Below are positions 28,390 through 47,245 of a DNA stretch of 64,000 bases, piece by piece. The notes below the pieces were generated by a model. The model saw only the letters and a program-made list of their open reading frames with translations. It was not told the origin of the DNA and made no database searches. Each line of letters begins with the position of its first letter. Within the stretch, counting starts at the first letter, position 1. The stretch spans positions 1-64,000 of the forward strand of contig JAFSTC010000014.1 in assembly GCA_017450705.1 (NCBI GenBank), in the 5' to 3' direction. The stretch comes from Lentisphaeria bacterium (GTDB lineage: Bacteria; Verrucomicrobiota; Lentisphaeria; Victivallales; Victivallaceae). Position numbers and translations under genes: made by a program.

Positions 28390-31358
28390 AATTCAAAATC
28401 CCTCTCCTGGCGGGACTGGCACTCTGCCTGTTCGCCGATGCCGGCGGGGAAAACATCCTTGCCGGGAAAACGGCCGTTTTCGAGCAGAAACCGAATTATC
28501 ATCTGACCACGGACGAAAACGACCCGAAGGATCTGACCGACGGGAAAATCCGGAACTGGCTGATCTGGAACTACAGATCTTCCGTGGGTTGGCAGCGGGG
28601 GAAGCAGTATTCCTTTTATTTCGACCTGGCAAAGGAAATGCCGATCGGAAATGTCCGACTGCACACCTCCGCGGGAAGGAACGGCGTAAAGCTCCCGAAA
28701 TCGATTCGTATTTATGCGGGAAACGATCTGACGGAACTCGCGCTGATCGGTGAAATGATCAGAGCGGACCGGGGATCCGGTCCCGAAGAAAAAAACGCCG
28801 CCACGACTTTCTGGCTCGAAGGGAACAATTGTCCCGTCATTGCCCGCTTCCTGAAGTTCGTCGTAACTCCTGCGGATACCCCGGAGGCATACTTCTTCGC
28901 CGACGAGATCACGGTCGGGAGAGGCGGCGGCGATGCGGTTCCCGTCGGCAAGCTTCCCGTCAGCAAAGAGGCTGCCGTCCCGGAAAATTCAGCTGCCAAC
29001 ATCCTTGCCGGAAAAACGGCCGTCTTCGAGCAGAAACCGAATTATCGTCTGACAACGGACGAAAACGACCCGAAGGATCTGACCGACGGTCATATCAACA
29101 ACTGGCAGGTCCATTTCTACAAGACAAGTGTCGGTTGGCAGGGAAAATTCTATATCGGATTTCTCTTCGATCTCGGAAAAGTCATGGATATCGGCCGGAT
29201 CAGGATCCATACTTCGCAGGGACACGGCGGAGTTCATCTCCCGAAAGGGCTGATCGTCCTTGCCGGGAATTCGCCGGATGAATTTGCGATCCTCGACGAT
29301 ATGATCGCTTCCAATCCGGACCTGCCGAAGTACGAGGACGGACCGAAGGTGCTGTGGATCACGGCGAAAAACAAACCCGTCAAGGCGCGTTATCTGAAAT
29401 TCATTGCCATTCCCCATGAAGATTCCACTTTCTTTTTTCTCGACGAAATCGTTGTCTCGGAGGGAAAAGACGGAACTCCCGTCGGAAAACTTGCCGGATT
29501 CAAGGGCGGCACGAAAGAGTTCGTCAAATACAGCAGACTCCGGGAACGGCTGAAACGCGATGCCGCGATCATCCGGAACAACATCCGTCTTTCCCGAAGC
29601 GGACGCTCTCCGGAGCTGCCGGAGGATCTGCTCACGGGCGATGCTTCGCGGATAAAGCAGTTCAGCGGAACGGATACGGATTTCCCCCTGAACGAAGCGC
29701 AGGTGAAATTTGCGGAATTCCAGCAGAAAATTCTGGCCGAAACAGGATATAGAGGACTGGTTCTCTGGGGAGGAAACCGTTGGGATATGTTCCACTCTTT
29801 TCGATTTCCCGAAAAGAAGACTCCTGACACCGTTATGAAAATGACCCCCGGTGAGACCAGATCGTTTATCATCAATGCCGCCAATGCGGATCCCCAAAAA
29901 GCCGATGTGAAATTCGTCGTGGACGCGCCTTTCCCCGTGGAGGTGAACGAAACGATCACGGCCGTGGATACCGGGAACTTTTTCAATGCGAACCGCCTCC
30001 AGCCCCTGAAACCCCAGGGGAAAGAGTACCGGTTCGATCTTCTGCCGGGCGAGAGCAGTCAGCTTTTTTTCAGGATCCCCCTCCCGCGAAAGCTCGCGGC
30101 CGGAACTTATCCCGTAAAGGTGAAATTTTCCGACGGGAAAACCGTTACGGCGACCGTGAAGGCAAACGGGGCGAAATTTCCGGAGCATTTGACCGCGGAG
30201 CATGGAGCGTGGGATTACCTCAACAACCTCGGCTGCCATGGGAATGTCATCGACAGGAACAATTTCAGCCGTGCGATCGAATTGATGAGGGCTTATCAGA
30301 TCGATCTGTGCTGGGGACATGAAATCGCGCTTCCTCCGGCAAGACCGGATATGTTTGATGCCGACGGAAAATTGGTGAAACCGCTTGATTTCAGCAAACT
30401 GGACGAATGGCTGAACCTGATGAAGGGCTTTCGACGCTATGCCATCTTCGGCGGAGGAAACCTGAACAGTCGTCTGAATTTCGGCTGTCTTCCCGAGAAG
30501 GAGCCGGAACGGTTCACAAAGCGTCTTGTTTCCTACCTGAACGCTTTGGCGGCCCACATCGAAAACGTCCACAAGATTCCCGTCGACCGGTTCCGGCTGC
30601 ATTTCGTGGACGAAGCCAGCACCCCGGTGCAGAAAGAACTTTTGAAGGCCTGGTGTCGCGGGGTGAAACAGTCGGCCGCTCCTTCCGGCAGAAAATTCAA
30701 AAGCTACGGGAATCCCTTTTTTGAAGGGAATGTTCCGGTTTATCCCTATCCGGAACTGGATATCATCCAGCCGAACCCCGGTTTCTATCGGAGAGATGCG
30801 GTCAAGCGGTTTGCTGAGGCCGATCGGATGCGGGACGGAAAAGGCTTTACCGGTCTTTACGTTTGCAGAAATCGCGTCCGTCAGCGCGATGCCTATATGT
30901 ACTTCGGCATGATCTCACGTCTGGGGATCCTTTTCGACAACTTCATCGGGATCGGTTTTTGGAATCTTGCCTGCGGCCCCAAAGATGTCGGCGAACTGGA
31001 TTACACCGGCAGGATTTTCACGACATGGTACTTCCGCGGCAATGACATCATGGTCAGCCGACAGACCGAAGCGATTCTGGAAGGACGGGAAGATTTCGAA
31101 TACATGCTCCTCCTGAAAAAACTGATTCTCCTGCTGAAGGGATCGGATCCGGCTCTTTCTGCAGAGGGAGAAGAACTTCTCCGCTCCATCAAAGCGGAAA
31201 TGCTCTCCGAGCTGGGCGGACCTCATGATGATCTCTCCCTGTGGGCGGTTCGGAAGGACCGTTCCGCCGCGGACCGCCAACGGGAAAAAATCTGGGATTT
31301 CGCCGAAAGAGTCCAAAAGAAAGATCCGGCTGTCTTCAAAAAAACCATTTGGAAATGA
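28386..31358 (+). CDS. Secreted DUF4091-like putative glycosidase with duplicated discoidin-like modules
   Basis: This 990-residue protein has a signal peptide (MKFKIPLLAGLALCLFADAGG). Two N-terminal modules (about 22-180 and 205-360) begin with the same sentence, NILAGKTAVFEQKPNY then LTTDENDPKDLTDG, and look like F5/8-type (discoidin) carbohydrate-binding domains. A central Ig/beta segment (about 480-600) precedes a TIM-barrel region (about 610-930) with the DUF4091-type end GREDFEYMLLLKK. Candidate acidic residues include FVDEAS (Glu) in the barrel. It should act on external glycans. The start overlaps the isomerase stop, and the GH38-like gene starts 19 bp after its stop. Confidence 0.85.
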   Translation: MKFKIPLLAGLALCLFADAGGENILAGKTAVFEQKPNYHLTTDENDPKDLTDGKIRNWLIWNYRSSVGWQRGKQYSFYFDLAKEMPIGNVRLHTSAGRNGVKLPKSIRIYAGNDLTELALIGEMIRADRGSGPEEKNAATTFWLEGNNCPVIARFLKFVVTPADTPEAYFFADEITVGRGGGDAVPVGKLPVSKEAAVPENSAANILAGKTAVFEQKPNYRLTTDENDPKDLTDGHINNWQVHFYKTSVGWQGKFYIGFLFDLGKVMDIGRIRIHTSQGHGGVHLPKGLIVLAGNSPDEFAILDDMIASNPDLPKYEDGPKVLWITAKNKPVKARYLKFIAIPHEDSTFFFLDEIVVSEGKDGTPVGKLAGFKGGTKEFVKYSRLRERLKRDAAIIRNNIRLSRSGRSPELPEDLLTGDASRIKQFSGTDTDFPLNEAQVKFAEFQQKILAETGYRGLVLWGGNRWDMFHSFRFPEKKTPDTVMKMTPGETRSFIINAANADPQKADVKFVVDAPFPVEVNETITAVDTGNFFNANRLQPLKPQGKEYRFDLLPGESSQLFFRIPLPRKLAAGTYPVKVKFSDGKTVTATVKANGAKFPEHLTAEHGAWDYLNNLGCHGNVIDRNNFSRAIELMRAYQIDLCWGHEIALPPARPDMFDADGKLVKPLDFSKLDEWLNLMKGFRRYAIFGGGNLNSRLNFGCLPEKEPERFTKRLVSYLNALAAHIENVHKIPVDRFRLHFVDEASTPVQKELLKAWCRGVKQSAAPSGRKFKSYGNPFFEGNVPVYPYPELDIIQPNPGFYRRDAVKRFAEADRMRDGKGFTGLYVCRNRVRQRDAYMYFGMISRLGILFDNFIGIGFWNLACGPKDVGELDYTGRIFTTWYFRGNDIMVSRQTEAILEGREDFEYMLLLKKLILLLKGSDPALSAEGEELLRSIKAEMLSELGGPHDDLSLWAVRKDRSAADRQREKIWDFAERVQKKDPAVFKKTIWK

Positions 31359-31377
31359 AACGGGACCGTCTGCCGTT

Positions 31378-33801
31378 ATGCTGAATCGGATTTATCTCAT
31401 ACATCATACTCATTACGACATCGGTTTCACCGATCTGCCGGACGAGGTCGACCGTCAGCAGCTTGTCTATCTCGACGAGGCTGTCAGACTTGCGGAAAAT
31501 GATCCGGAATACTGCTGGACCATCGAAAGCGCATCGCTCCTCCGGAATTATCTCGAAAGCAGACCGGAAAAGATGGTCGGCAGACTTCTCGATCTGCTCC
31601 GCAGCGGCCAGTTCGAGGTCGCCGCATTCGATATGCAGATGCTCACCGAAACCGCATCGTTTCCGGAACTTCTGGAAAATGTCATGCGCGCCGTCCGTCT
31701 GGGAAAAGAATACGGCTTCCCCGTGGAATGCGCGATCCTCGATGATATCGGCGGATTCGCGGGGGAGCTTCCCCGGCTCATGAATGAAGCCGGGATCCGT
31801 TATCTCATCGCCGGATGCGGCGCGTTTCAGACGGAACTTCCGTGGGCGGATCTGCCCTATCTCTTTTATCTGGAATCCAAATGCGGCGGAAAGATTCTGG
31901 TGTGGAATCTGGGAAATGACCGGCAGGAAAATTCCTGGGAATCGAGATATCCGTTCCCCGTGTACGGCATGGGAGGACACTATCTGGGGTACAGGGCCTT
32001 TTCGGAACTCTTCGGAGAACCCGATCTCGGCGTCAGAACCGCTTTGCCGGATGATACGGATGAACACAAACTTACTGCCGCAGAAGTGTTTCATATCCTG
32101 GAAAAACGTTTGGAACAGGATAAATACCCTTATCCCGAACTCCTTCTCCAATACGGCGGCGACAATCGGAACCCGTCTTCGAAAATGGCGGAATTCGTAC
32201 GCAGACTCAATGCTTCCGGAAATTATCCGGCGATCGAACTCTGCACCCCGTCCGCATTTTTCCATGTGATGGAAGAGAAGTACGGGAACACGCTTCCCGT
32301 GATCCGGGGGGTCCTGACCGATCCGTGGAATATCCGGATCAATGCGGTCCCGTCGGTCCTGAAGAAATACCGCGGGGCCCAACGGCTTTACGATGCCATG
32401 CGGCTTTACGGCATGACCGACGGAATCATCCAGGAAAATTTGATGCTGGTGGCGGATCATACCCTCGGTTTGAACATCTGGGGCTGGCAAAGACTGTATG
32501 AGGAAAACGGAAAACGTCTGACGGCGAGTTGTTTTGACCGCCCCCGGGAAAGCTGGGCCTGCAAGGCGGCGTATGCGGAGAACGCATTCCGCAGGGCAAA
32601 ACGGCTCTGCCGGGATATGACGAAGAACCGTCCGCAGGAGGAGTCCGAGGGTGTGATCGTGCGCAACCGCACACCGCATCGGGTTTCCGGAACGGCGGAG
32701 CTGTATCTCGGCTCATATGCCAGAAGACTGGTTTCTCTGAAAGACGCTTCCGGGAATGAGGTCCCGCGTCAGCTCTGCGGACAGAACCGCTGGATGATCT
32801 ATGTCCGCGATGTTCCCGCACTGGGAAGTCTGCGGCTCGTACCGGAGTTTTCCGGGGTCTATGATGAAGTGCCTGTTCCGCCGCGGGCTGAAATCCCCGG
32901 GGAGATCGAGGCGGCGGGATTCCGGTTCGGATTTGCCGCGGACAGTTCCCTCCTGGAGATCAGGAACGGCAGGGGATGTTTGCTGACGGACGGCATATTC
33001 GGGACACTGATCCGAGAGAAAATCGCCGATACGGGGACGGGCGGCGAAAATTGCGGCCTGAAGCCGTGCAAAGAACGGATCCGGGAGGTTCTTTCCGGAC
33101 TTGCGGGAAAACTCGTTGCCGACGGGGCGCTTTATTTTGACGTCTTTCAGTCGGGGGTATTTTCCGACGGGCAGGCTGAACGGACCGTCAGGATCTGGAA
33201 ATTTCTGCCGCGCATCGATTTCCTGTTTCGCCTGGATATCCCCGAAACACCGGAAAAGAAATGCTGTTATGCGGCGTTTCCCCTTGCCGGAACTGACGGC
33301 ACGTTCCGTTTCGATCAGAACGTCGGGATCGTCTCTCCGGGAGAACTTCTGTCCGGTTCCATGCTGGATCTCTTCTACTGTTCCCGTTATGCGGCGGTCG
33401 AGTCCGAAAAATATACCGCCGTTCTCTGCTGTCCGGACGCGCCTGTGGTGGAGTTCGGCGGGCTTCATACCGCCGAGTGGCGGAAAAAGCTGCCTTTGAC
33501 CATCGAAAACAACCATATCTACGGTCTGCTGTGCAATAATATCTGCAATACGGACGCTCCCGCATGGCAGGGGGTCCTGGACACGTTCTCGTATTCGCTT
33601 TTCCTGCATGAGGAGAAATTTTCCGGCGGCATGGCGCAAGCCGACTGGAACTCCTTGACCGCTTTGGAGTGTGAGATCAGTTTTGAATCTGCGGATCCGG
33701 GGATCCCCGCCGTCCCGGAATCCCTTCGCATCCATACGGATTACCGGGGGAACTGGTATTTGGAAGATATGGATCGGTGTTCGCTTCTGCGGAAAATGTG
33801 A
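31378..33801 (+). CDS. GH38/DUF5054-like glycoside hydrolase
   Basis: This 807-residue protein starts MLNRIYLIHHTHYDIGFTDL. HHTHYDIGFTD (residues 9-19) is the metal-binding HxxxD-type opening of the GH38/DUF5054 superfamily. CAILDDIGG (about residues 120-128) is a candidate for the following acidic strand. The C-terminal half is beta-rich, as in alpha-mannosidases. No signal peptide is present. The ATG at 31378 is chosen because homology starts there; upstream sequence in this frame overlaps the DUF4091-like gene. A C-terminal beta segment typical of the family (FDVGNGRVEFSVPRFG) lies in another frame just past the stop, so the protein may be truncated by a frameshift near 33740-33780. Confidence 0.85.
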   Translation: MLNRIYLIHHTHYDIGFTDLPDEVDRQQLVYLDEAVRLAENDPEYCWTIESASLLRNYLESRPEKMVGRLLDLLRSGQFEVAAFDMQMLTETASFPELLENVMRAVRLGKEYGFPVECAILDDIGGFAGELPRLMNEAGIRYLIAGCGAFQTELPWADLPYLFYLESKCGGKILVWNLGNDRQENSWESRYPFPVYGMGGHYLGYRAFSELFGEPDLGVRTALPDDTDEHKLTAAEVFHILEKRLEQDKYPYPELLLQYGGDNRNPSSKMAEFVRRLNASGNYPAIELCTPSAFFHVMEEKYGNTLPVIRGVLTDPWNIRINAVPSVLKKYRGAQRLYDAMRLYGMTDGIIQENLMLVADHTLGLNIWGWQRLYEENGKRLTASCFDRPRESWACKAAYAENAFRRAKRLCRDMTKNRPQEESEGVIVRNRTPHRVSGTAELYLGSYARRLVSLKDASGNEVPRQLCGQNRWMIYVRDVPALGSLRLVPEFSGVYDEVPVPPRAEIPGEIEAAGFRFGFAADSSLLEIRNGRGCLLTDGIFGTLIREKIADTGTGGENCGLKPCKERIREVLSGLAGKLVADGALYFDVFQSGVFSDGQAERTVRIWKFLPRIDFLFRLDIPETPEKKCCYAAFPLAGTDGTFRFDQNVGIVSPGELLSGSMLDLFYCSRYAAVESEKYTAVLCCPDAPVVEFGGLHTAEWRKKLPLTIENNHIYGLLCNNICNTDAPAWQGVLDTFSYSLFLHEEKFSGGMAQADWNSLTALECEISFESADPGIPAVPESLRIHTDYRGNWYLEDMDRCSLLRKM

Positions 33802-33935
33802 TGCCGGTTATCGATCGAGGTCTCCGCATGATCCCGAATGGTCTTCCGCCGGAATTTGATGTCGGAAACGGCCGGGTGGAGTTCTCCGTGCCGAGATTCG
33901 GATGTCACCGCATGGTAGAACTCTCATACAAGGAG
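33802..33935 (+). pseudogene. Out-of-frame C-terminal remnant of the GH38-like gene
   Basis: In the frame entered at GTG 33777, the sequence reads ENVMPVIDRGLRMIPNG then FDVGNGRVEFSVPRFGCHRMVEL, which resembles the last beta strands of GH38-type enzymes and is unlike random translation. No stop follows before the palindromic element starts near 33950. It may be the tail of the preceding gene, separated by a one- or two-base change and cut by the element. Confidence 0.45.
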
Positions 33936-34156
33936 CAGGGCCCCCTTCCGCCTTGCTGTTCCCCGCACGGACAGACGGCGGTTTCAAAACGCTCCGCTTT
34001 TTTCGAAAAGGATGGAGGGCCGGGGGAGTGGAAACGGGGGGACCCTGAACGATCACCGCTTTTGCCTGACCGCCGGCAACGATGTCGAACGCCGCCGCCG
34101 GCAGACCCCAAAACCGCGGATAACACCGCGACCGCGAGATACAACGACTTTTTCAT
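33905..34156 (-). pseudogene. Gene fragment with signal peptide, truncated by a palindromic element
   Basis: An 83-codon frame starts MKKSLYLAVAVLSAVLGSAGG, a convincing signal peptide. After about 40 residues it enters the palindromic element, so the rest is not native. TTGACA-17-TATCTC (34190-34218) could be its promoter. It looks like the 5' remnant of an exported-protein gene; expression of a short peptide is possible. Confidence 0.35.
33950..34060. repeat. Dispersed palindromic element, degenerate copy 4 (reverse orientation)
   Basis: It reads GCTGTTCCCCGCACGG, then CAAAACGCTCCGCTTTTTTCGAAAAGGATGG and GGGCCGGGGGAGTGGAAACGGGG, matching the outer module and one hairpin arm of the other copies; the second arm is missing. 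It fills much of the gene-poor interval 33802-34345, which otherwise holds the remnants described and two divergent promoter candidates. Confidence 0.6.
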
Positions 34157-34189
34157 TTTTCACCGTGCTTTTTATATGGATCCCGCTTG

Positions 34190-34218
34190 AGATACCACCC
34201 GCGGCGGACATTGTCAAG
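34190..34218 (-). promoter_or_regulatory. Weak promoter ahead of the signal-peptide fragment
   Basis: On the minus strand: TTGACA, a 17-bp spacer and TATCTC, 34 bp before the ATG at 34156. The -35 is consensus and the -10 is poor. Confidence 0.35.
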
Positions 34219-34279
34219 CAGGGCGCCGCATACCCGCGGGGCTTTCCGGCCGTTTTTCGGCCGACTGTCCCCCGGCAAG

Positions 34280-34307
34280 TTGAATTTTGGCGAAAGAATG
34301 CTATTGT
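34280..34307 (+). promoter_or_regulatory. Promoter of the GH106-like gene
   Basis: TTGAAT (34280-34285), a 16-bp spacer and TATTGT (34302-34307), 38 bp before the ATG at 34346. Confidence 0.55.
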
Positions 34308-34345
34308 AATACGAAAATTCGAAGAGAGACACACGGGATCGGGCA

Positions 34346-37225
34346 ATGGAGCACAAAACCGGGATCTATCCCTTCTGGATGTGGAACGGCCGCATGGAGC
34401 GCGCCGAACTGAGCCGTCAGATAAAACTTGCCAAGGCGGGCGGCGTGACCGGGTTGACCCTCCACGCCAGAGCCGGCAACGAGATACCCTACCTCTCCGA
34501 TCGATGGATGGAGCTGGTGCGTTTTTCCTGCGAGGAGGCGGAAAAGGCCGGTCTTGAGATCTGGCTCTACGACGAACAGGGTTTCCCCAGCGGCGACGCC
34601 GGGGGGAAGATCCCGGCGCTCGGCGAAAAATTCCAGCAGAAAGCCCTGCTTTTTTCCGAAGCGTCCGCCGCCCGGGCCCGGCAGCTGCCGGACGTGGTGA
34701 GGGTCTTTTCCAAAGAAGATCCGGCAAAGAGGCTTGTTCTGGAGGAGGTTCCCGACGGCGAGACCGTCATCGTCTTCCGCAGACTGCTCTTTCCCCGTTC
34801 CCCGGACATGCTCGGGAAAGATACCGCGGAAGAATTTCTGAAGATCACCCACGACAGATATTATGCCGTCCTGAAGGACTTTTTCGACCGCAAGGTCATC
34901 ACCGGCATATTCACCGACGACAGCCACTATCTCTTTTCGGCCGGCCCGCTGCTGGCCTATATGGACGATCTGGAGGAGACCTTCCGCGCCGCGTACGGGT
35001 ACGGCATCCTGGACAATCTTTCCGCGCTGGTGGAGAACATCCCCGGGGCGGAAAAGATCCGGAGCGACTACTACCGGCATATGGCCGAGACCTTCAACGC
35101 CCGGTTCATGAAACCCATGCACGCGTGGTGCGCTTCCCACGGGGTCCCACTCTACGGACACCTTTCCGGTGACGAGGGCCCGCTGCACAAGATCATCTCC
35201 CGCTTCGGGGATCCCGGCAGTTACTTGAAGCACTTTCAGTCTCCGGGTCTGGACGATTATCTGCTGATGAATTTCGACTGCGCCCAGATGGTCTCGCCGG
35301 TCAACAGCTTGCCGTCGGGCGGGAGATTGAACCGCGCAAAAGGATTCCCCGTGATCGTCTGCGCCAAACAGGCCAGTTCCGCCGCCGCGCAGACCGGAGA
35401 CGGCCGATGCATGGCCGAGGTGCTGGCTTCCGCCGGATGGGGCGTGCCGCTGGAAATGGCGATGAACCATCTGCGTTTTCTCAATATCCTGGGCGCCAAT
35501 GTCTTCGTCACCCACGACTTCGCCTACACTTCCGCCAAGGTCGCCAAGCGGGACCATCCGGCAAGTTACTTTTTCCAGCAGCCCTATTTTCGGCGCAACC
35601 GGGAGATCTTTTCTTCCGTGCTCGAGTCGCTCAAGTGGAGCGTCCGGGGCAGAAGTTACGCCGAAACGCTGGTCATCCACCCGGTCCGTTCTGCCCAGTG
35701 CGCCGTGGATGGGGCGACGCTCGACGAGCCGGGACACTACCGTTGTCAGGAGCCCTCGCGCCATCCGGATTGCCGGGAAGTCACCGAAGTGCTTTCCTGC
35801 TTGTGCCTGCAGCTGATGCGGCGGCATATCTCCTTCGATTTCGGCTTCGAAACCGCGCTGGACGACAGCGGAGTCGAAGCCGGCTGTTTCCGCATCGGTA
35901 AAAGTTCATACAAAACGGTCATTCTGTCCGGACTGGTTTCGATCTCGGGCCGGCTTGCTTCCCTGCTCCGGGATTTCGTCCGCAGCGGCGGTCAGCTGAT
36001 CTCGACCGTCCGCCGCCCGGTCATGATCGACGGCGAGACTCCGGCCGCGGGAGAGCTGCCCGAGAGTCTTCTCATCCCCGCCGTGGACGAAAAAACCGTA
36101 TTCCCCATGGCCCCCGATCTGAAATTCACCGTGTCCGGCGGCGACGGCCGCCGGGTGGCGACGGCCCGGCGCATCGTGGACGGCAAATTCGAATACATGC
36201 TCCACAACTGCAGCAACGACGGCGATTGTCAAATCAGCGTGGATCTGCCGGGATACCTTTGCGTCGACCCGGTTTCCCGGGCGGTCTTCCCCGTTCCGGA
36301 ACGATTCAACTTGGAGAAATACGGCATCGTCCACCTCATCCCCGAAACCGCCGCCGCCCCGGCGGGCAAAATGCCGTCGGTCTTCTCCCTCCGGCAGCCG
36401 GAGATCGTCCCGTGGCCGTCCCCGTGGCGGGTCAGGGCGGAAGAAAAAAACGTTTACCGCTGGGAAAGCGCCGAGCCCACCTGGTCCCGTCCGGCGGATT
36501 TCCGCGGCGCCGAATACGATTTCGTTCCGGAATACGTGCCTTTCACCAACCGCTTCGAACTGGCGTTCCAGCCCGAGTCGCTGAAGATCGCGCTGGAAAC
36601 CGTCCTTTTCGATTCGGTCAAAGTCAACGGCGTCGAGATCCTCGGCCGGCCCCGGACCGCGCACGACGCCTCGCCCGATCTCTTCTGCATCGAGATCGCC
36701 GATCTGGTACATCCCGGAGAAAACATCTACGCCTTCACCCGAAAGGAAAAGCATCCGGAATTCATCTATCTTCTGGGCGATTTTGCCGTGGACGAGTCCG
36801 ACGGCGTTCCGAAACTGCTCCCGCTCCGGGAGATCACCTTCGGCGACCTCGCTTCTCAGGGGATGCCCTTCTACCGGGGGACCGTGACGTATTTTTCCAC
36901 GATCGACGGCGGCCTTCTGCGCCGGGCGGAAACCTGCCGTCTGGAAATCCCCGCCCCGCTCAACGGCGCGGTCGGCGTCCGGATCAACGGCGTCGATCTG
37001 CCGATGCGCCCCTGCGCGCCCTGGCGGTACGACATCGGCGAGTATGTCGAAGAGGGCCGAAACGAAGTCGAGCTGATCTATTACAGCACCGCTCAGAACT
37101 TCCTCGGTCCCCGGCAGGTCGCCCGGCAGAAGGAACACTTTTCCGCCTGGTACCCCCCGCGGCAGGGCGAAACATACGACATGTCCCTCGGCCTTCCCGC
37201 CCCGCCCGTCATCGCCGTCTTCTGA
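34346..37225 (+). CDS. GH106-like (alpha-L-rhamnosidase-type) glycoside hydrolase
   Basis: This 959-residue protein has no signal peptide. It opens YPFWMWNGRMERAELSRQI and GGVTGLTLHARAGNEIPYLS, then has LYDEQGFPSGDAGG (73-86), the hallmark N-terminal pattern of GH106-related proteins. A TIM-barrel region with GIFTDDSH and PLYGHLSGDEGP follows. Residues about 690-959 include beta-sandwich modules like GH2 sugar-binding domains (FELAFQPESLKIALETVLFD; RVNG-type strands). Cleavage of alpha-L-rhamnosides is the best guess; the window also holds a rhamnulokinase at 56121. It is monocistronic, ending at a palindromic element between convergent genes. Confidence 0.82.
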   Translation: MEHKTGIYPFWMWNGRMERAELSRQIKLAKAGGVTGLTLHARAGNEIPYLSDRWMELVRFSCEEAEKAGLEIWLYDEQGFPSGDAGGKIPALGEKFQQKALLFSEASAARARQLPDVVRVFSKEDPAKRLVLEEVPDGETVIVFRRLLFPRSPDMLGKDTAEEFLKITHDRYYAVLKDFFDRKVITGIFTDDSHYLFSAGPLLAYMDDLEETFRAAYGYGILDNLSALVENIPGAEKIRSDYYRHMAETFNARFMKPMHAWCASHGVPLYGHLSGDEGPLHKIISRFGDPGSYLKHFQSPGLDDYLLMNFDCAQMVSPVNSLPSGGRLNRAKGFPVIVCAKQASSAAAQTGDGRCMAEVLASAGWGVPLEMAMNHLRFLNILGANVFVTHDFAYTSAKVAKRDHPASYFFQQPYFRRNREIFSSVLESLKWSVRGRSYAETLVIHPVRSAQCAVDGATLDEPGHYRCQEPSRHPDCREVTEVLSCLCLQLMRRHISFDFGFETALDDSGVEAGCFRIGKSSYKTVILSGLVSISGRLASLLRDFVRSGGQLISTVRRPVMIDGETPAAGELPESLLIPAVDEKTVFPMAPDLKFTVSGGDGRRVATARRIVDGKFEYMLHNCSNDGDCQISVDLPGYLCVDPVSRAVFPVPERFNLEKYGIVHLIPETAAAPAGKMPSVFSLRQPEIVPWPSPWRVRAEEKNVYRWESAEPTWSRPADFRGAEYDFVPEYVPFTNRFELAFQPESLKIALETVLFDSVKVNGVEILGRPRTAHDASPDLFCIEIADLVHPGENIYAFTRKEKHPEFIYLLGDFAVDESDGVPKLLPLREITFGDLASQGMPFYRGTVTYFSTIDGGLLRRAETCRLEIPAPLNGAVGVRINGVDLPMRPCAPWRYDIGEYVEEGRNEVELIYYSTAQNFLGPRQVARQKEHFSAWYPPRQGETYDMSLGLPAPPVIAVF

Positions 37226-37516: not shown

Positions 37517-40500
37517 TTATTTCGCCGGAGGTGTCAAGGGGATGCGGCACGAGGTGCCGCCCGGAACCGAGACGGAAAAACGCTTCCCGCCGTACACGGG
37601 CGCAAGTTCGGGAGACGTGATCTCCGCACGGATCTCGTGTCCGGTCGGGTTGTGGACTTCCAGAAAAGCGTCGGCCGTGCCGTAGAGGACCGGCGTCAGT
37701 TTCAGATCCCGGTCCGAGGAGAGAAAGAGGTTGCCTCCCCAGAACGAGGCGGCTTTTTCCATGGACATCTGAAAATACATGGTGCGGTCATGAACGGGGA
37801 CGAAGGTGAAGACGCCTTTCGCATGATCGTAATAGGCGGCCGTCCCGTTGTCCTCGACGCCGCGGATGAAGAACGGCCAGTCGCAGATCATGGGAAATGC
37901 GGGGAGTTCCGCCGCAACTTCTCCATTTTCCGCGTGAAAAGCGATAAACCCGGGCGTAAAAATCTGATTTCCTCTTTTCATTGCGGCTTTTGCAGCGGGA
38001 TCGCTCAGGCGGTCTGCGATCTTGCGGCAATACGCGGCGGTATCCGGTGTCCCCACGCACGTGCAGACCGCAAGGAAAAACGAAACCTCGTCCCCCGCTT
38101 TGAACTTTTGCCCGGCCTTTCCGAAGCCGACGGCGAGAGTCCCGTTTGCGGCCAACCGGAATTTCGGACTCAGCGAGACCGATTGCGGAACGATCAGGAT
38201 CCGCCTGGTGGAATTTGTGCTGAGCACAGTGGCAAATCCCCCGTTTTTCAGTTCCCCCGCCTTGGCCGTGCCGGTCGAACTTTCCTCTATGCCGCTGGGC
38301 GTTTCCACAACGAGACGGTCCCAGAACCCCCGCTCTTTCGAATAATAGTCGGAGCCGGAGGTCATGGACACAAGGTGGATGGGCATATCCCCCTTCAGGA
38401 CGACGTCTTTCTTGAATTTCAGAAAGATGCGGTGATACATCAGTCCGCCCCGATAATCGTCATCGGCAAGCCACGGTCTGGTGAATCTGCACGACGGCCT
38501 GATCCGGCTGCGCATGAGCCAGGTCGTATGCCTGATGTCCGCGATCGGCTGATCTTCGCCCAGCGGGAAGAAGGAATAATAGGTGTAGGTCATCCGCCGG
38601 TCCGGGCGATGCCTTTTTTCCGTATGGACCCGCCGGTGAGAGTCCTGCGTGAGAATGGAAACTTCATTGGAGTTGACGGGATAACGCTGCCGGATCGCAT
38701 TCAGTTCATCCAGCTGATTGCTCCCGCCGGGCTGTTCTCCTTCTTCCGTCGACAGGCTGATATTGAGATCTGCGCAGGGTTTGAAGATAAAGGGGACGCC
38801 CGAGTCGATGCCGGCGATGGGCGTCGTGTCTTTTTTGCCCATGTCGAGACGGGCGGAATATATGTCCTCGAAATCGCGCAAAACCGGGACCTGATGACAG
38901 GGCGGGTGCATCAGGAGCGTGCTGTAGCCGAGAAGATTCAGATTGTCCGTACAGCGCGTGACCGCGTAATAGGGGTTCTGGATCAAAACCTCGGGCGAAA
39001 CGGCCTTTTTCCCGTTCAGATCCGTCACTTCGAGGACCAGGTGATGCACCCTGTCGTGAAGCGCGGCAAATTCCCGGGAAAACTGCTTTTGCCCCCTGCC
39101 GTCGAACCGCCGGAACAGCCCTTCCGTCCCGTCCCACACTTTGACGTCCCGGATCCCAGCGTCGGAGGAGACCTCGAATTTCAGCCGCACCCGCTGCCGT
39201 TTCTGCTGGACCTCGTAATCCGCCGCCGCGGAAGCATTGACCCCCTGCCAGAGGGAGATGGACGGCCCTTCGGACGCATATCCTCTTCCGCAGTCGAACG
39301 TGTTTTTCGTATTGAGCCACTCTTTGGCATTTTCCACGTTCCCGTAAACAAAATTCCAGCCGCAGGCCGCGGCCTCTTTTGCCAACCTCGCGGGCGAATA
39401 GATCCCGTTGAACACGATATTTCCCTGACCGCGGACGTCGTTCAGCGCAAAGAGATATTCCCGCAGATTTCGGGCGAGGACCTGGCCGTTTCTGCAGACT
39501 TTCACCGGGATCCGGAAGTACCACCAGAGATTGCTCGCATCGCCCAGTTCATGCAGACGGTCGTAGTTGAGAAGCGCGGAGGGCCTCCGGTTGCAGGAAG
39601 CGGCATACAGCCCCCACCAGTTCACTTTGTCTCTGGGACCGTTGAAAATATGGTCCTCCGGGAAGATGACGTCTTCTCCCCAGAAGGCCCAGCGCAGGCC
39701 GTTGGCTTCGCTGAATTCGATCCCGGGACAGGCGTAGAAATCTGGATCGGAAACGGCGGCGCAGGCCTTTTTCAGCGCGGCATATTTTTCCGGCGTCAGC
39801 TTTTCGAGGGATTCCGTAAAGGCCAGAAAACGATATCCGGCCTTCCTCGCGGCGGCGGCGTATTCGGAAACCGTTCCTTCGCCGTCGGAAAAGGCGCTGT
39901 GGACGCCGATCAGGCCCTTGACGCAGGGACTCCCGTCAGGAAACGGGACACGGTCGAAATTGGCCGGTTTCACCTTTTTTGCGGCAGTCGTCGGCGGCTC
40001 CTGATAGAACCCGATCCTGGGATTTTTCAACGCGTCGCGGAAGAGAAATCTGAACGTGTTCATGAGAAGCAAGGTCCCGTCGCTCTTCGTCTTCCCGTCC
40101 CCGTTCTTTTCCCAGACGGCGGGCCAGTCGCAGGCATGGGCGTTGATCGAGAGGTGCATCAGATTGCAGGAAATGACGGCGATCTTGCCCCTCCCGTAAG
40201 GACGCCAGGCGGCGAGGACGGGCGCCGATCTCAGGCTCCCCTCCCTCACGAAAAGGCTGTTTTTGGAGGTCTCCGCCGTCGTGACGTAGGACTTCGCCGT
40301 TTTTTCTCCGAAGACGACGGGCGTCCACTCCCGGGAGAGGATCAGTCCCATCGTCCCCCACATCCCGCCGCATCCCCATTCGGGGACGAAGAGCGTTTTC
40401 ACCCCTTTCGTCATGGGCGAGTCGACGATGTTGCCCGTGCGGAAAAACCGCAGGTAGGAAGGCGCCTTGGGCGCGGAAACGGAGAGAAACGGGTGACCCG

Positions 40501-41641
40501 GATAAGAGAACTGATTGGCGGGATCCGTGATCCCTTCGCGGAGCATTTTTATCCCGTACGGACCGAACATGAGATTGAAGATCTCGGGGCGGCGGTCCTG
40601 ACGGTATTCGCCGTTCTGGGGGACCAGAAGAACATTCCCGCCGATCTCGAGGTACCGGCGCAGCGCGTTCCGGTAAGCGAGGGTCGTTTCCTCGTAGTCC
40701 GCCTGCCGGAAGCCCCGGTCGAGGGAGAGGATCACGGCATGGTATTTGCACAGCTCCCCGAAGATCTTCTCCTCCGGGACGTTCCCGAAGACCCACGACA
40801 TGCTGTTCGTGGCATGCCCCGTCATGCCGTTCCGCTTCAGCGTGGAGTAAAGACCGAATCTCCGCCAGGCATCCCCGTAACGGAATTCCTCCGAGAAGAA
40901 TCCGATTTTGGGCGTCCGCCCGTTCAGGAAACAGCTGAGCTGTCCCGGAAAATTCATGCCCTCCTCTTTGCCGGCATCGGGCGACCCGGTGCCGTAAACG
41001 AGATCGTCCCCGAGGCAGGCGATGCTGCCGCACGGCAGGTTTTTCTCCCCGATGACGGCCATCGTCATTTTGGCGAGGCGCAGGAAACCTGCGGGGACCA
41101 GGCGGATCCCGTCTTTCCCGCCGCCGTTGGCCGGATTCCGGACATAAGCATCTTTCCCGTCGATGTCGTATTTCGCACACGCCGCGGCGAAGTCGACCAG
41201 CGGGATATCCCGCTCTTTTGCAATTGTTTTCAAAACATCATTTTCTTCGGCGATCCTGACATTCGGCGTCCGGTCCCCGTAGGCTTCTTTCGGGTTCCGG
41301 GCAAAAACAAGGTGTTCGTTGACGTTCGGGATCGTGACGAGGATGACCGGGATTTTTGCCGACTGGAACTGCGAGAGGATGCTTTCGATGCTTTTTTTGT
41401 AGTTTTCCTTCGTGATCTTGCCGCCCTTCCACGCGGCGTCCACGGTGCCGGTCATGACGACGGCAAGTTCTGCCTTTTCCTCGATCGCTTTTTTCGGCTG
41501 TTCCAGGGCGACTCTGGCGGCGGTCACGCCCGGTCTGGCAAGATTGATCACTCTGCTCGCGGCATGGAGCGGAGCCCCCGCGGCGACGAGGACCAGCCCT
41601 GCGAGAAGAACGGCGATGGGGCAGTTGTCGTGAAGGTGCAT
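37517..41641 (-). CDS. Giant secreted protein: degenerate permuted SGNH, GATase-like and PHP-like domains
   Basis: This 1374-residue protein starts MHLHDNCPIAVLLAGL with a signal peptide cut near APLHA; ATG 41641 has AGGAG upstream. Residues 28-240 match an SGNH hydrolase in permuted motif order: block II-like NLARPGVTA (33-41), block III GTVD (65-68), block V DGIR (177-180), then block I GDDL (211-214) in CLGDDLVYGTGSPDAGK. The catalytic Ser, Asn and His are replaced, so it is probably inactive and may bind ligand. Residues about 245-500 resemble a glutamine-amidotransferase/ThuA-like fold (LSLDRGFRQADYEE, IGGNVLLVPQNGEY). Residues about 575-780 resemble a PHP domain (GVHSAFSDGEGTVSEYA). The rest is beta-rich and unassigned. 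It is the last gene of the minus-strand locus led by the GntR-GH38 fusion. Confidence 0.8.
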   Translation of the reverse strand: MHLHDNCPIAVLLAGLVLVAAGAPLHAASRVINLARPGVTAARVALEQPKKAIEEKAELAVVMTGTVDAAWKGGKITKENYKKSIESILSQFQSAKIPVILVTIPNVNEHLVFARNPKEAYGDRTPNVRIAEENDVLKTIAKERDIPLVDFAAACAKYDIDGKDAYVRNPANGGGKDGIRLVPAGFLRLAKMTMAVIGEKNLPCGSIACLGDDLVYGTGSPDAGKEEGMNFPGQLSCFLNGRTPKIGFFSEEFRYGDAWRRFGLYSTLKRNGMTGHATNSMSWVFGNVPEEKIFGELCKYHAVILSLDRGFRQADYEETTLAYRNALRRYLEIGGNVLLVPQNGEYRQDRRPEIFNLMFGPYGIKMLREGITDPANQFSYPGHPFLSVSAPKAPSYLRFFRTGNIVDSPMTKGVKTLFVPEWGCGGMWGTMGLILSREWTPVVFGEKTAKSYVTTAETSKNSLFVREGSLRSAPVLAAWRPYGRGKIAVISCNLMHLSINAHACDWPAVWEKNGDGKTKSDGTLLLMNTFRFLFRDALKNPRIGFYQEPPTTAAKKVKPANFDRVPFPDGSPCVKGLIGVHSAFSDGEGTVSEYAAAARKAGYRFLAFTESLEKLTPEKYAALKKACAAVSDPDFYACPGIEFSEANGLRWAFWGEDVIFPEDHIFNGPRDKVNWWGLYAASCNRRPSALLNYDRLHELGDASNLWWYFRIPVKVCRNGQVLARNLREYLFALNDVRGQGNIVFNGIYSPARLAKEAAACGWNFVYGNVENAKEWLNTKNTFDCGRGYASEGPSISLWQGVNASAAADYEVQQKRQRVRLKFEVSSDAGIRDVKVWDGTEGLFRRFDGRGQKQFSREFAALHDRVHHLVLEVTDLNGKKAVSPEVLIQNPYYAVTRCTDNLNLLGYSTLLMHPPCHQVPVLRDFEDIYSARLDMGKKDTTPIAGIDSGVPFIFKPCADLNISLSTEEGEQPGGSNQLDELNAIRQRYPVNSNEVSILTQDSHRRVHTEKRHRPDRRMTYTYYSFFPLGEDQPIADIRHTTWLMRSRIRPSCRFTRPWLADDDYRGGLMYHRIFLKFKKDVVLKGDMPIHLVSMTSGSDYYSKERGFWDRLVVETPSGIEESSTGTAKAGELKNGGFATVLSTNSTRRILIVPQSVSLSPKFRLAANGTLAVGFGKAGQKFKAGDEVSFFLAVCTCVGTPDTAAYCRKIADRLSDPAAKAAMKRGNQIFTPGFIAFHAENGEVAAELPAFPMICDWPFFIRGVEDNGTAAYYDHAKGVFTFVPVHDRTMYFQMSMEKAASFWGGNLFLSSDRDLKLTPVLYGTADAFLEVHNPTGHEIRAEITSPELAPVYGGKRFSVSVPGGTSCRIPLTPPAK

Positions 41642-41663
41642 TTTTTTACTCCTGTCGTGTGGG

Positions 41664-42968
41664 TCAGATCGTCTTGCGGTGCACGATGCCCTGCTGGGAC
41701 ATCGCTTCGGCCTGAAGCGATTTGACGTCGATCTCCCGCGTTTTCCATTTTCCTTTGGCGAGAACCGCCGCGAGGCCGCAGATCTCTCCGACGGCGATAC
41801 AGGTCCCGTTGATCCTCGAAGAGGAAAACGCATCATGGGTCGCGGAGATGGGGCGGCCCGCGATCAGCAGATTGTCCACGCCCTGCGGCAGGAGGCAGCG
41901 GAAGGGGATCCCGTAACTCTTTTGGAGACAGAAGTGGGGCATCGGCGTCTCTCCGTGGATCCTGTCCGGGACATGGATGTCGATCCCCCACCCGCCGCGG
42001 GCGATCTCGTCGTCGAAATCCCGTCCCTCGATCACGTCCTCTTCGGTCAGGGTGTAGGCGCCCGCGATCCGGCGCGTTTCCCGGATCCCCGGCTGCATGG
42101 CGGTTTGAGCGACGTAGCAATTTTGGAATCCCGGCAGGTTTTTCCGGAAGAATTCGGCGATCTCCAGCGCCTGTTCCATGCCCTCTTTCCGGATCCGCGC
42201 CTGCCCTTCGTGGGTCAGCGGGGCGCAGTTCAAAATATGCGTCATGTTGACGGCGGCTTCTCCGTTGGTCCCGGGGAGATACGTGATCACCGTGTGATTG
42301 GTGGGCGTCATGTGCGGCTGTTTTTGCCACAACGCCGTCGCCTCGGTCATTTTGCGGGGGGCTTTTGTCATGTCGATCCCCGCGAGTTTGAAGGTGAGGG
42401 AACTGGACTGGACTTTCCCGTCCGTGTCGCGGCCGTACCGCACCGGACACCCCGCAAAATATGCCAGGTCGGCGTCGCCCGTGTCATCGATAAAGAAGGG
42501 CGCTTCCCACGCCTCCAGCCCCTGCTTCGAGGCCGTGACGATGTAGGAGATATCCCGCCGTTCCCGCCGCGCGGAGATCAGCGTGGTCTGAAGCAGGATC
42601 CTCACCCCGGCTTCCTGAAGCATCCGGAAGAGAACAAGATCCAGTTTCTCCGGATCGACCCGGTACGCCCAGCCGCCGTCCCGGGGCTGACTGCCGCCGA
42701 CCGCCTCCAGACGGCGGATCATTTCGCGCAGGAACAGGCCGTCCACCGTGATCTCCGAGTCCAGCCGGAGACCGGAGATGATCCCGAGTATCCCCGAGAC
42801 CGGGACGCCGCCGAGTTTGTGATAGTGCTCGATCAGCAGGACGTCCAACCCTCTTCGGGCGGCATTCCAAGCGGCGGCGCATCCGCTCAACCCGGCTCCG
42901 CATACGATCAAGTCGCACGCTCCCGAGACCGGGACCGTTTCCCGGGGAAATTTGACGGATTTTCTCAC
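41664..42968 (-). CDS. FAD-dependent oxidoreductase
   Basis: This 434-residue protein belongs to the FAD_oxidored type: a dinucleotide-binding [17 protein letters not shown] near residues 24-40, [11 protein letters not shown], and an FAD-contacting segment [25 protein letters not shown] near the C-terminus, shown here in parts. No signal peptide is present. A GTG start at 42968 overlaps the pseudopilin stop (GTGA) and has AAGGA upstream, so translation is coupled; a longer frame starting at 43205 would run through the pseudopilin gene out of frame. Related proteins recur in glycan loci of this phylum and may oxidise sugar alcohols or side chains; the substrate is inferred only. Confidence 0.87.
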
Positions 42969-43729
42969 AGGGCCGTTCCTTTGGCGTTCCAGAAGTAGTC
43001 GTTGGTCCGGATGTCCTGACCGGTTTGCAACGCCCGCAGCCCCCGCGGATCCGTGTTCTTTATCGACTCCATATGGCCGTCGACGAACAGGGTATTGGCC
43101 GCCTGGCTGTGCCGGAAATCCGGTTCCGCGCCTTCGCTGTCCCGGTATTTTTTGCGGCTGGTCCAGTAGCTCCCCGTCCCGTAATTGTAGGCTGCTCCGG
43201 TCCACCCGTCGATCAAATACATCGCTCGGCCCGCTTGCGTGATCTGATTCACCTTGTAGTAGAAACAGGTCCCGTAGACATCTCCCGCCGCATTCGTCCC
43301 GTTGTAATCCGGGCTCTGGGTGATGCCCAGATTCAAATAGTAGCTGATATTCTTTTCACGCCTGTCCTGAGGACACTGCATCATGCCGCGCTTTTCGGAG
43401 CCGTTGTTTTTCTTGCCGAAGTTGCCGGACATATATCCCTTTTCGAACAGGATCTTCGTCCAGGGGTCGATCGCGCTTGCCGAAACTTTTATGCCCGCAT
43501 TCATGAGCCACCCCTGGGAATCGTTGGAGTACATCATGAAATTCGTTCCCCACTGCTTCATCTGCGAGGTGCAGTTGATCGCGCCCGCCCGTTCTCTCGC
43601 CTGCTGCAGCGCGGGCATCAGCATCGCCGCCAAAATCGCGATGATCGCTATAACGACAAGAAGTTCGATCAATGTGAATTTCGGATCCGCATTTGACGGA
43701 CGACACGGCGAACGGTCGTTTTTTTCCAT
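42965..43729 (-). CDS. Pseudopilin-like protein with H-X9-DG motif, locus 3
   Basis: This 254-residue protein starts [17 protein letters not shown]. The pilin-type signal has Phe18 and Glu22 (+5) in [20 protein letters not shown] with Lys at -1. The C-terminal [15 protein letters not shown] is an exact H-X9-DG signature. ATG 43729 follows AGGAAAAG; 43777 is a weaker start. It lies 44 bp after the permuted SGNH hydrolase and its TGA overlaps the next gene's GTG. It is the third pseudopilin in the window embedded in a regulated enzyme locus, with one per locus. Confidence 0.88.
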
Positions 43730-43773
43730 GTTTCTTTTCCTGTCGCGTGTTCTTGTTTGAAGTGATCGGCGGT

Positions 43774-44502
43774 TCATTTTGTTTCATCCTTTCCGTTTGC
43801 TGCCGTCAAATATTTTTTGAGTTGTCCGGGATACGTCGTTCCTGAAATTTTTCCGGCATCGGGGCTGCCGACGCCGTAGGTCAGACTGTCGCCGATACAC
43901 AGGATCTTTTTCGGCAAATATCCTGCCTGCCGGATCGTATCGGCCACGCATTCCGCAAGCGCGGCGTAGCCCTCCTCCGTAAGGTGGATCCCGTCGGCGA
44001 CGCCGGAATTTTCCGGGAGGCGAAGCAGTGATCTTTTCCCCTCACATCCCCTTTTCATGACGACGGCATGAAGATCCGCGAGGGGCAATTTCTTCGCTTC
44101 CGCGGCTTGTTTCAATATCGCATTGAACTTGAGGATCCGTTCGTTGGGAAGTTTTTCGCCGAAAACTTCTTTGCCGTGCCGCCGAAAAAGACAGGCCTCG
44201 TTGCAGGGAGGGAGCGTGACGAGGATCAGCCTGCTTTGCGCTCCGAGGATCTCTTTTACGGCAAGATCCAAGGTTTTGAGAAACGCTTCCTGCGAGGACA
44301 GAACTTTGGAATTGCAGGCATCGTTCGTTCCGAAAAGCATCACGGTCACGTCCGGTTTCACTTCCAGCGCATTCCGGAGCCATTTTTCGTTCACGGAGAC
44401 AAATGGTTTCCCCGGAACGCTCCGGACGAAGACCTGAACGTCTTCCGCCGCAAATGCGCCCGCCAGGGCCGCCGCCATGGAAAACAGGAGGGTTTTCTTC
44501 AT
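43774..44502 (-). CDS. Circularly permuted SGNH hydrolase, secreted
   Basis: This 242-residue protein has a signal peptide ([19 protein letters not shown]). Motif order is block II-like SVPGKPF (Gly31), block III GTND (Asn60), block V DGIH (Asp170, His173), then block I GDSL (Ser206) in [17 protein letters not shown] close to the C-terminus. Canonical SGNH enzymes have block I first. Joining the C-terminal segment ahead of residue 21 gives a standard SGNH sequence, so the fold is probably intact with new termini and a complete catalytic set. The ATG at 44502 is placed by the signal peptide; its ribosome-binding site is weak. The last gene of the operon carries a degenerate copy of the same permuted domain. 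Confidence 0.85.
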
Positions 44503-44589: not shown

Positions 44590-47208
44590 TCACCGGATGA
44601 GAATGTTTTTGATCTCGAAGGGCTTGAACTTCAACTCGGGGGAGGGGAGGGCCTTCCCGTCATTTCCCAACCCGTCGGTCTCGAACAGGGTTTTGCCTTC
44701 GGCCAGCGCCCCGGCGAGGGTCGTCGTGAGCGGGAGACCGCGCGTCTCGTAAACGCGGAGGAACAGTCCCTTCTTCAAGTTGCGGACCGAGGAGACCGCC
44801 GCGCCGGGGAGCCTGAGTTGAGACCCCTCCGGCAGGGAGCCCGTCAGCACCTGGACGGGGCGGTTCAGCAGAGCGCCCAGTTCATAAGCCTTGATCATAT
44901 CCATTGGACTATGCGCCCGGAAAGCGAAACGGTAATGATGCAAGCCGTTGTCGTAGGAGCCCGGCTGGGGCGTCAACTGACCGTCGCGGGTGGCGGTCCC
45001 GCTCCGCAGGAGGGCAACGGTGATGACGCCGTTGCTCAACTGGTGTCCGGGCGTTCCGGTGTTGGCGACCGTAAGGCCCATGGAATAATCGGAAAGGTTG
45101 ACCCAGTTCAGCGCGGGCCAGTCCCCCTTGGCTTCCCGGTAATCTCCTGAGGTCTGAAGCTGCTGCAGCGTGGATTCGTACTTTTCGTCCACCTCGAAAT
45201 AGGGCTTCCGGACCAGCGCGGAAAAGGGCGTCTCGTAGGTCCCGGCGGCCTTCAGGGGATCCACCGCTGTGGGGAAGCAAATGGAGACTTTGGTGTTGCA
45301 TCCCGTCCAGTCGAGTTCGAGATCCAGTGTGAAATAGTCCAGTTCGTTGTAAAACCGGTACTCTTTGCGGAAGGCGAGCGCGCCGAACCCCGGCCAATGG
45401 GGCCCGAGATTGCCGGAGGCGGCCGGTCCGGGAAGCACGTTCCCCTCCGTCACGACGCGGCGGAAGACACCTCCCGCTTCGCAGAGCACGACCTTTTCCC
45501 GGAAAAACTCCAGGGGGATCGGCAGCTGCCAGAAATCCTCCGACCACATGGAGCCGGTGTCCCGCTGGACGCGCAGCGCTCCGAAGCCGTCGGCGGAAAA
45601 AACGTTTTTCCCGTTCAGGTTCCGGATCACGGGAGAGGGCCCGAAGAAATCGGCGTGGAAATATTTCGTGTCGAAAACGGGCTCGCAGGGCCTGGCCGCG
45701 GCGGCTTTCCCCGTTTTTTTGAACGTCTTGATCCCGAAGGAAGGCAGATCGACGGTGTAAACGGCCAGATCTCCCGCTTTCTGGGCCGCGACGCCCTCCG
45801 GGACGACCGGCGACGTGACCAGCTGGGGCCCCTCCGCGGTCGAAAAACTGCAGAGAGAATATCCCTTGCCCGGGATCGGATCGGATTTTGCGCCTTGCGC
45901 CGTTTCCAGGTATTTGTCGATCTCCGGAGTGCAGGCGTCGACGTGACAGCCGCATGCGGCGTCGTGGAACTGGGCCGAAAGAAGCGAACGCCATTCTTTG
46001 CGGAACTCGTTTTCTTTGCCGAGGACGGCGTTGAGGTATTCGGCGCGGAACAGAGCCGATTCCGCCTGGCGGATCGCTTGCTTCGTGCCGATCCGCGTCG
46101 TGTAGCAGCCGGTGAAGACCGGATTGAATTCGCCGCGGTAGTCCGGCAGATCGTCCAAGGAAGCGTCGGCGAGATACCGGTGACAGGAGCCCGGGACGAT
46201 CTGCTTGCCCCCCAGCCCGTTCGCCATGGCGAGGATGCTGAAAATGCTCTCCTGAAACGTGCCTTCTTCGGTGGAGTAGGAGAGCAGAACGGTCCCCGGC
46301 AGCTGTTTCGCCGCCAGAATGTTTTTCAGGAGCCGGGTCTCCCCGGTCTGCACCAGAGGGACGTTCAATTCATACCCGAGGTGGGTGATCTCGGCGGTAT
46401 TGCGGAAAACGGTGACGCCTCCGTTGCCGGCTAAAGATTCCCAGCGGAAAAGATCGGCTTGTGCGATTTCCTGGGGCTGATTGGGCGTCCGGCCGGGAGA
46501 GAGGTACCGGATGCCGCACTGCATCAAAATCTGCGGCAGCTGGGCGCACATGCCGAAGGCATCGTTGAAGCGGGCAAGATCGCTGGAGCGGCCGAGAGTT
46601 TCCCGATACCAGGCAAGTCCCTGCTCCAGATTGCGGAAGATCGATTCGCCGCTGACCATATTGAGGTCCGGGATGCTGTAAACCGAGCACAGTTCCAGGC
46701 GGCCTTCCGCCGCAAGTTTCTTTGCCGTTGTCAGGAGCTCCGGATGCTGTTCGAAAAACGCGCGTCCGATCTCCGCCTGCTCCAGCTGGAAGGAAACGCC
46801 GTCATACGCGTCGGCATACCGGAACTCGGTGAGCAGCTGTTCTTCGCGTATCTTTTTGTATTCTGATGTCGGGCGCCGCCAGATCAGATCGGAATGGTGA
46901 CAGAAATAGAGGTAGGCTTTTCCCGGCCCCGCTCCCGTTCCCTGTTGCTGACGATGGGGTTCGGCAATGGCGGAAGCGTGGGGAGAAACGTAGAACCCGG
47001 AGGCGCCGCGGCACTCGACATAGCCGTTGCCCATCAATTCCTTGAGCGCATTTTGAATGACGGAGAGACTGACGTCGAACCGGGCGGACATTTCGCGCAC
47101 GGTCGCCAGGCGCTCCCCCGGAGCGATGACGCCCTCCCGGATCAGTTTCATGATCTCCCGAACGACCTGATCCCGCTTGGGAGGCTTTGCTTTCAGTGAT
47201 TCTTTCAT
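44590..47208 (-). CDS. GntR helix-turn-helix fused to a GH38 alpha-mannosidase-like enzyme
   Basis: This 872-residue protein is one uninterrupted frame. Residues 12-76 form a GntR winged helix (DQVVREIMKLIREGVIAPGE; MSARFDVSLSVIQNALKELM). Residues 97-872 form a GH38-type enzyme with the metal-site opening CHHSDLIW (His105, Asp107), nucleophile-type Asp216 in NDAFG, YSTEEG (311-316) and QFHDAACG (His415, Asp416), followed by the long beta C-terminal domain. Catalytic positions are largely kept, so it may both cleave or bind a mannoside and control transcription. No signal peptide, as expected for a DNA-binding protein. ATG 47208 has GGAG nine bases upstream; a TTG nine bases earlier is possible. 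It has a strong promoter and leads the locus. Confidence 0.88.
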   Translation of the reverse strand: MKESLKAKPPKRDQVVREIMKLIREGVIAPGERLATVREMSARFDVSLSVIQNALKELMGNGYVECRGASGFYVSPHASAIAEPHRQQQGTGAGPGKAYLYFCHHSDLIWRRPTSEYKKIREEQLLTEFRYADAYDGVSFQLEQAEIGRAFFEQHPELLTTAKKLAAEGRLELCSVYSIPDLNMVSGESIFRNLEQGLAWYRETLGRSSDLARFNDAFGMCAQLPQILMQCGIRYLSPGRTPNQPQEIAQADLFRWESLAGNGGVTVFRNTAEITHLGYELNVPLVQTGETRLLKNILAAKQLPGTVLLSYSTEEGTFQESIFSILAMANGLGGKQIVPGSCHRYLADASLDDLPDYRGEFNPVFTGCYTTRIGTKQAIRQAESALFRAEYLNAVLGKENEFRKEWRSLLSAQFHDAACGCHVDACTPEIDKYLETAQGAKSDPIPGKGYSLCSFSTAEGPQLVTSPVVPEGVAAQKAGDLAVYTVDLPSFGIKTFKKTGKAAAARPCEPVFDTKYFHADFFGPSPVIRNLNGKNVFSADGFGALRVQRDTGSMWSEDFWQLPIPLEFFREKVVLCEAGGVFRRVVTEGNVLPGPAASGNLGPHWPGFGALAFRKEYRFYNELDYFTLDLELDWTGCNTKVSICFPTAVDPLKAAGTYETPFSALVRKPYFEVDEKYESTLQQLQTSGDYREAKGDWPALNWVNLSDYSMGLTVANTGTPGHQLSNGVITVALLRSGTATRDGQLTPQPGSYDNGLHHYRFAFRAHSPMDMIKAYELGALLNRPVQVLTGSLPEGSQLRLPGAAVSSVRNLKKGLFLRVYETRGLPLTTTLAGALAEGKTLFETDGLGNDGKALPSPELKFKPFEIKNILIR

Positions 47209-47245
47209 GGGGCGCAACTCCAGTGTTTCTGTGGATCTTGGAGCA

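Follow-up and report, generated by a model that had tools for sequence, protein, structure and literature searches.

The question raised by this locus is which function is left to a large protein that is assembled from enzyme folds but has lost their catalytic residues. The gene is located in the window, by which we mean the whole analysed stretch of 64,000 nucleotides, and belongs to a run of genes on one strand (Table 1). An AGGAG sequence at 41649-41653, 7 nt upstream of the ATG, is a plausible ribosome-binding site. Residues 1-28 of the focal protein form an apparent Sec signal peptide, recognised by eye rather than by a predictor, and the protein is probably exported. Three genes upstream lies P0002, the gene of an intact permuted esterase.

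Table 1. Genes of the operon and domains of the focal protein, with positions in the window
Feature	Residues	Position	Strand	Remarks
Focal gene, 1374 aa		37517..41641	minus	ORF coordinates and length exact
Degenerate circularly permuted SGNH domain	29-245	40907..41557	minus	blocks II, III (GTVD), V (DGIR), I (GDDL)
Displaced block I segment	204-243	40913..41032	minus	
GIFT/ThuA-like pseudo-glutamine-amidotransferase domain	244-536	40034..40912	minus	profile and fold search
PHP-fold domain without the metal-ligand set	571-792	39266..39931	minus	profile, fold, alignment
All-beta, putatively Ig-like domain	793-883	38993..39265	minus	model secondary structure; the name Ig-like is inferred
Galactose-mutarotase-like supersandwich	893-1216	37994..38965	minus	fold search; partly low model confidence
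C-terminal beta-sandwich	1217-1374	37520..37993	minus	model secondary structure
FAD-dependent oxidoreductase (PF12831)		41664..42965	minus	22 nt ahead of the focal gene
Prepilin-like protein		42965..43777	minus	N-terminal methylation motif; 4-nt overlap with the preceding stop
P0002, stand-alone permuted SGNH protein		43774..44502	minus	intact GTND, DGIH and GDS
GntR winged-helix and GH38 alpha-mannosidase-like fusion		44590..47217	minus	opens the gene run

A circularly permuted SGNH domain

A permuted SGNH order at the N-terminus had been proposed in the first-pass annotation, and it is supported by profile, rotation and model. The Pfam profile Lipase_GDSL_2 matches residues 30-164 (E 2.4e-10) and is entered only at profile position 34, thus block I is absent from the N-terminus. 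The block I sequence CLGDDLVYG is placed after block V; the motifs GTVD, DGIR and GDDL occupy residues 65-68, 177-180 and 211-214, respectively. When block I was moved in front and the sequence was rescored against the profile, the score of the focal domain increased from 41.7 to 57.4 bits, and its profile coverage was extended from 34-162 to 1-162. The same rotation of P0002 raised the score from 69.6 to 73.9 bits and the coverage from 24-178 to 1-178. The higher score of the rotated focal sequence, with coverage reaching the start of the profile, indicates a true circular permutation.

The AlphaFold model of residues 27-250 (pLDDT 96) resembles solved SGNH hydrolases with Z up to 16.3, one match having Z 16.1 and an rmsd of 1.9 A over 151 residues. 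In most rows of the fold search the alignment is limited to model residues 1 to about 178, as is expected if the final segment is displaced. A profile of the permuted family (25 members) matched solved structures in separate segments only, none of the matches running through both. The focal domain has the SGNH fold and is predicted to pack as one domain; on the basis of the rotation and the model, the block order II-III-V-I is best regarded as a circular permutation within a single domain. The same order could be mimicked by a tandem of two broken SGNH domains, which would likewise lack block I at the start and carry an isolated one at the end. Since the rotated sequence matches a single Pfam domain throughout and stand-alone members (220-270 aa) end directly after block I, we rejected this highly improbable explanation, against which the identical block order in 39 genomes also speaks.

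Full-length permuted SGNH matches were found in 39 of the 387 genomes covered by the phylum search. Asn, Asp, His and Ser are all present in 36 of 39 distinct copies, and one copy is cut short. The remaining two, the focal domain and a copy in a congener (L061/L033), are degenerate. Family members stand alone or are placed N- or C-terminally in large proteins.

Several of these proteins deserve mention in their own right. The degenerate copy of the congener (L061:3081-6599, genome G008) is apparently independent of the focal one; it forms the N-terminal part of a 1173-aa protein and carries GRDD, GGEE and a shortened block V. Related SGNH fusions of 1170 aa from this genus were intact wherever they were tested (L130). 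At five loci (L054, L055, L056, L057 and L058) an intact permuted SGNH domain forms the extreme C-terminus of proteins of 1480-1807 aa, whose remaining 1250-1400 residues are almost without Pfam match in the two that were tested. In the genome analysed here, two further proteins of about 1150-1190 aa (L071:7798-11376 on contig C77 and L072:5313-8780 on C64) carry an intact permuted SGNH domain N-terminally; DUF6259 is present in the former. AxeA1 (NF042968) was considered as a permuted relative and dismissed; the match is limited to the end of the model and no paper was found.

Circularly permuted SGNH-like acetyltransferases have been described in AlgX/AlgJ and PatB1, which act in the context of carbohydrate acetylation (PMC9487903, PMC4148444). 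Their blocks follow the order H-S-G-N, with the cut between blocks III and V (PMC9487903). The family described here shares with them an SGNH core with permuted catalytic blocks, but its order is G-N-H-S with the cut between blocks I and II, so that the H-S-G-N order typical of that group is not present, and its intact members carry the canonical motifs GDS, GTND and DGxH. To canonical SGNH/GDSL acetylesterases (1yzf, 3p94, Axe2) it is similar in fold and in the succession of blocks II, III and V, whereas block I is C-terminal and, in the focal domain, other residues stand in place of Ser, Asn and His. Searches of the literature, the coverage of which was partial, turned up only proteins of the AlgX/AlgJ/PatB type and no description of a G-N-H-S order.

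Loss of the SGNH active site

The first-pass annotation had also read the motifs GDDL, GTVD and DGIR as replacements of Ser, Asn and His, which is borne out at Asp213, Val67 and Arg180. The focal domain is thus without the catalytic residues of an SGNH/GDSL hydrolase. It keeps 22 of 31 strongly conserved family positions, including structural glycines; three of the nine lost positions are catalytic. Judged from the sequence, the loss of residues is concentrated on, and not confined to, the active site, and the domain is to be called an SGNH-fold protein and not an SGNH hydrolase. The proposed coexistence of one apparently active and one dead copy in one operon agrees with the intact motifs of P0002 and the replaced ones of the focal protein.

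It is very unlikely that the domain retains chemistry with Asp213 acting in place of the nucleophile. Although Asp213 is located exactly at the Ser position and Asp177 of block V is retained, neither the oxyanion Asn nor the catalytic His is left.

A conserved body of enzyme-like folds

Residues 244-1374, referred to here as the body, represent a family found across the phylum. Four parts are recognisable in the body model (pLDDT 79.9). The first domain matches IFT52 by profile (E 2e-6) and, by fold, DDOST (Z 17.9), IFT52 (Z 17.5), the GATase1-like protein 3rht (Z 14.0) and ThuA-like proteins. The GATase-like domain that had been suggested earlier is thus confirmed as a fold (Z 14-18), but it has no conserved Cys and hence not the nucleophile Cys with His-Glu of class I glutamine amidotransferases. 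While it shares fold and IFT52 profile match with the GIFT domains of IFT52 and DDOST/OST48 and with ThuA-like and GATase1-like proteins, it differs from them in being bacterial, secreted and fused to PHP and supersandwich domains. The supersandwich is most similar to PL26 (Z 15.1) and to the C-terminal domain of GH38 enzymes (Z 14.5).

The PHP-like domain, also named in the first-pass annotation, was recovered both by the CehA/McbA profile (NF038032; E 1.6e-6 and 27.7 bits, below the curated 80-bit cut-off) and by a fold match to TM0559 (Z 16.7). The PHP fold is present without the metal-binding His/Asp/Glu set. All 26 body-family members have Gly in place of the first motif-I His and have lost the His of TDH, and the second motif-I His is retained in some of them only. 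In an alignment with eight ligand-bearing PHP proteins from within the phylum, the later columns of which are less certain, the focal protein keeps His581, Asp586, Glu642 and Asp735 and is without five ligand His. An active PHP domain with ordinary metal ligands was discarded on account of these losses, and the domain is, by its sequence motifs, best called a pseudo-PHP throughout the family. Compared with CehA/McbA-type PHP metallohydrolases such as TM0559 (2anu) and BVU_3505 (3e38), the latter also a two-domain PHP protein, the fold is the same, but the metal-ligand His are missing and the profile score stays short of the family cut-off. An automatic annotation as CehA/McbA metallohydrolase or the like would therefore be misleading for the body family. 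The suggestion that a PHP-like domain in a secreted protein is unusual did not hold: the body with its PHP domain recurs as a phylum-wide family, and it is the SGNH domain that is the unusual part.

Glu369, Trp439, Arg480, Cys627 and Asp899 are invariant in the 26 members. The body may thus have an enzymatic activity of its own at a non-canonical site, for instance near Cys627, Glu369, Arg480 or Asp899, with only the SGNH domain being dead. The polar residues among these invariant positions and the conservation of about 1100 residues across a phylum argue for this explanation. However, the invariant positions are spread over different domains and the body retains none of the known catalytic sets of GATase, PHP or mutarotase, so that we consider this explanation unlikely, though a serious rival.

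Origin of the fusion

One relative was found by a scan of genome contigs. Lentisphaeria UBA1776 shares the run of GntR-GH38, permuted SGNH, prepilin, FAD oxidoreductase and body genes. Identities between window and UBA1776 are 71% for the SGNH protein, 71% for the prepilin, 80% for the FAD oxidoreductase, 77% for the body (over residues 244-1369) and 36% for GntR-GH38. The body of the UBA1776 orthologue (L005:9899-13405) directly follows the signal peptide, without an SGNH domain, which marks the fusion as lineage-specific; a fused SGNH-body protein was absent from every other genome searched.

The two SGNH proteins of the operon had been regarded as paralogues. The stretch CxGDxLxYGxGSPDAGK, on which this was based, is indeed present in both, while their sister grouping is weak. 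In the best tree, the focal domain falls together with the operon esterases of window and UBA1776 at 65/87 only, on a very long branch (1.78), and an alternative grouping was not rejected (p-AU 0.34); the two esterases themselves are grouped at 100/99. A local duplication of the operon esterase was not accepted as settled because tree support is too low. Neither was a simple recent copy, as the two esterases are 71% identical whereas the focal domain is only about 35% identical to either. Gain after the split of the two lineages would require a much faster rate in the focal domain. According to these identities, fusion before the split followed by loss in UBA1776 may fit the rates better, yet it needs a loss. 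The SGNH domain is either a lineage-specific addition or a remnant lost in UBA1776.

The second serious rival is a functionless, decaying SGNH passenger on a body that does the work alone, which we regard as rather improbable. The UBA1776 orthologue manages without the domain in the same operon, the focal branch is long, and the fusion occurs in one genome only among those searched. Against decay, the frame is open over 217 codons, structural glycines are kept, and the fold is predicted at high confidence, although such an alignment-based prediction is no proof that this copy folds.

Neighbourhood of glycan-related genes

Strong GH38 matches were found at 8 of 26 body loci as compared to 0 of 19 permuted-SGNH loci. 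The 18 genomes concerned contain some 85 GH38 matches in approximately 69 Mb, a density at which the 281 kb examined should hold roughly 0.35. Three GH38 matches are present in the genome analysed here, two of them inside the window. Further neighbours of the body genes include GH20, GH3, alpha-L-rhamnosidase and sialic-acid acetylesterase genes. Adjoining the operon, a divergent glycan-related run on the plus strand (28386-37225) encodes a weak F5/8 type C protein, a second GH38-like protein and a weak GH106-like protein.

The GH38 domain is fused to a GntR helix-turn-helix domain in the window and at four other loci (L043:8358-11000, L038:821-3451, L047:7585-10230 and L005:4359-6992), with the HxD and DAFG motifs kept. 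Perhaps these fusions are one-component regulators that sense mannosides with an enzyme fold. As the GH38 domains of most neighbours are GntR-fused, they may sense rather than degrade mannosides.

Proposed function

The reading we prefer, to which we give an even chance, is that the focal protein is a secreted, catalytically silent glycan-binding or scaffolding protein built from dead enzyme folds and encoded in a saccharolytic operon. The exported protein would act without catalysis, alongside the intact permuted esterase and a regulator linked to alpha-mannosides. The conserved body with its pseudo-amidotransferase, pseudo-PHP, Ig-like and mutarotase-like parts would be the ancient core, and the dead SGNH domain would most likely recognise the acetylated glycan that is deacetylated by the esterase of the operon. 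Folds, lost catalytic residues, gene order and the clustering with GH38 are observed, whereas glycan binding, the acetylated ligand and the action together with the esterase are suggested by folds and neighbours.

Several lines of evidence point in this direction. Ser, Asn and His are replaced in a family of which 36 of 39 distinct copies are intact, while 22 of 31 family positions and a confidently modelled fold are kept. PHP ligands are lost in 26 of 26 members, the closest folds to the first body domain are the non-catalytic domains of DDOST and IFT52, and those closest to the supersandwich are domains of sugar enzymes. GH38 clustering, the other glycan genes nearby and the fusion of permuted SGNH to a DUF6259 protein elsewhere agree with this. 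On the other hand, the recent dead domain lies on a long branch and could simply be decaying, the five invariant body residues could form an unrecognised active site, and the GntR-fused GH38 domains may serve sensing and not degradation. The broader idea that a series of enzyme folds was turned into one glycan-recognition scaffold in Lentisphaeria and relatives, with the dead SGNH domain as an acetyl-glycan lectin for its intact operon homologue, is tentative and on balance doubtful.

While the individual folds are known, the literature searched contains neither their combination nor the block order nor the loss of the PHP site throughout the family. A G-N-H-S permutation of the SGNH domain is widespread and, by its sequence motifs, mostly catalytically intact in one phylum. 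If glycan binding holds true, the body family would provide a clear case of enzyme folds jointly reused as a binding scaffold in polysaccharide degradation.
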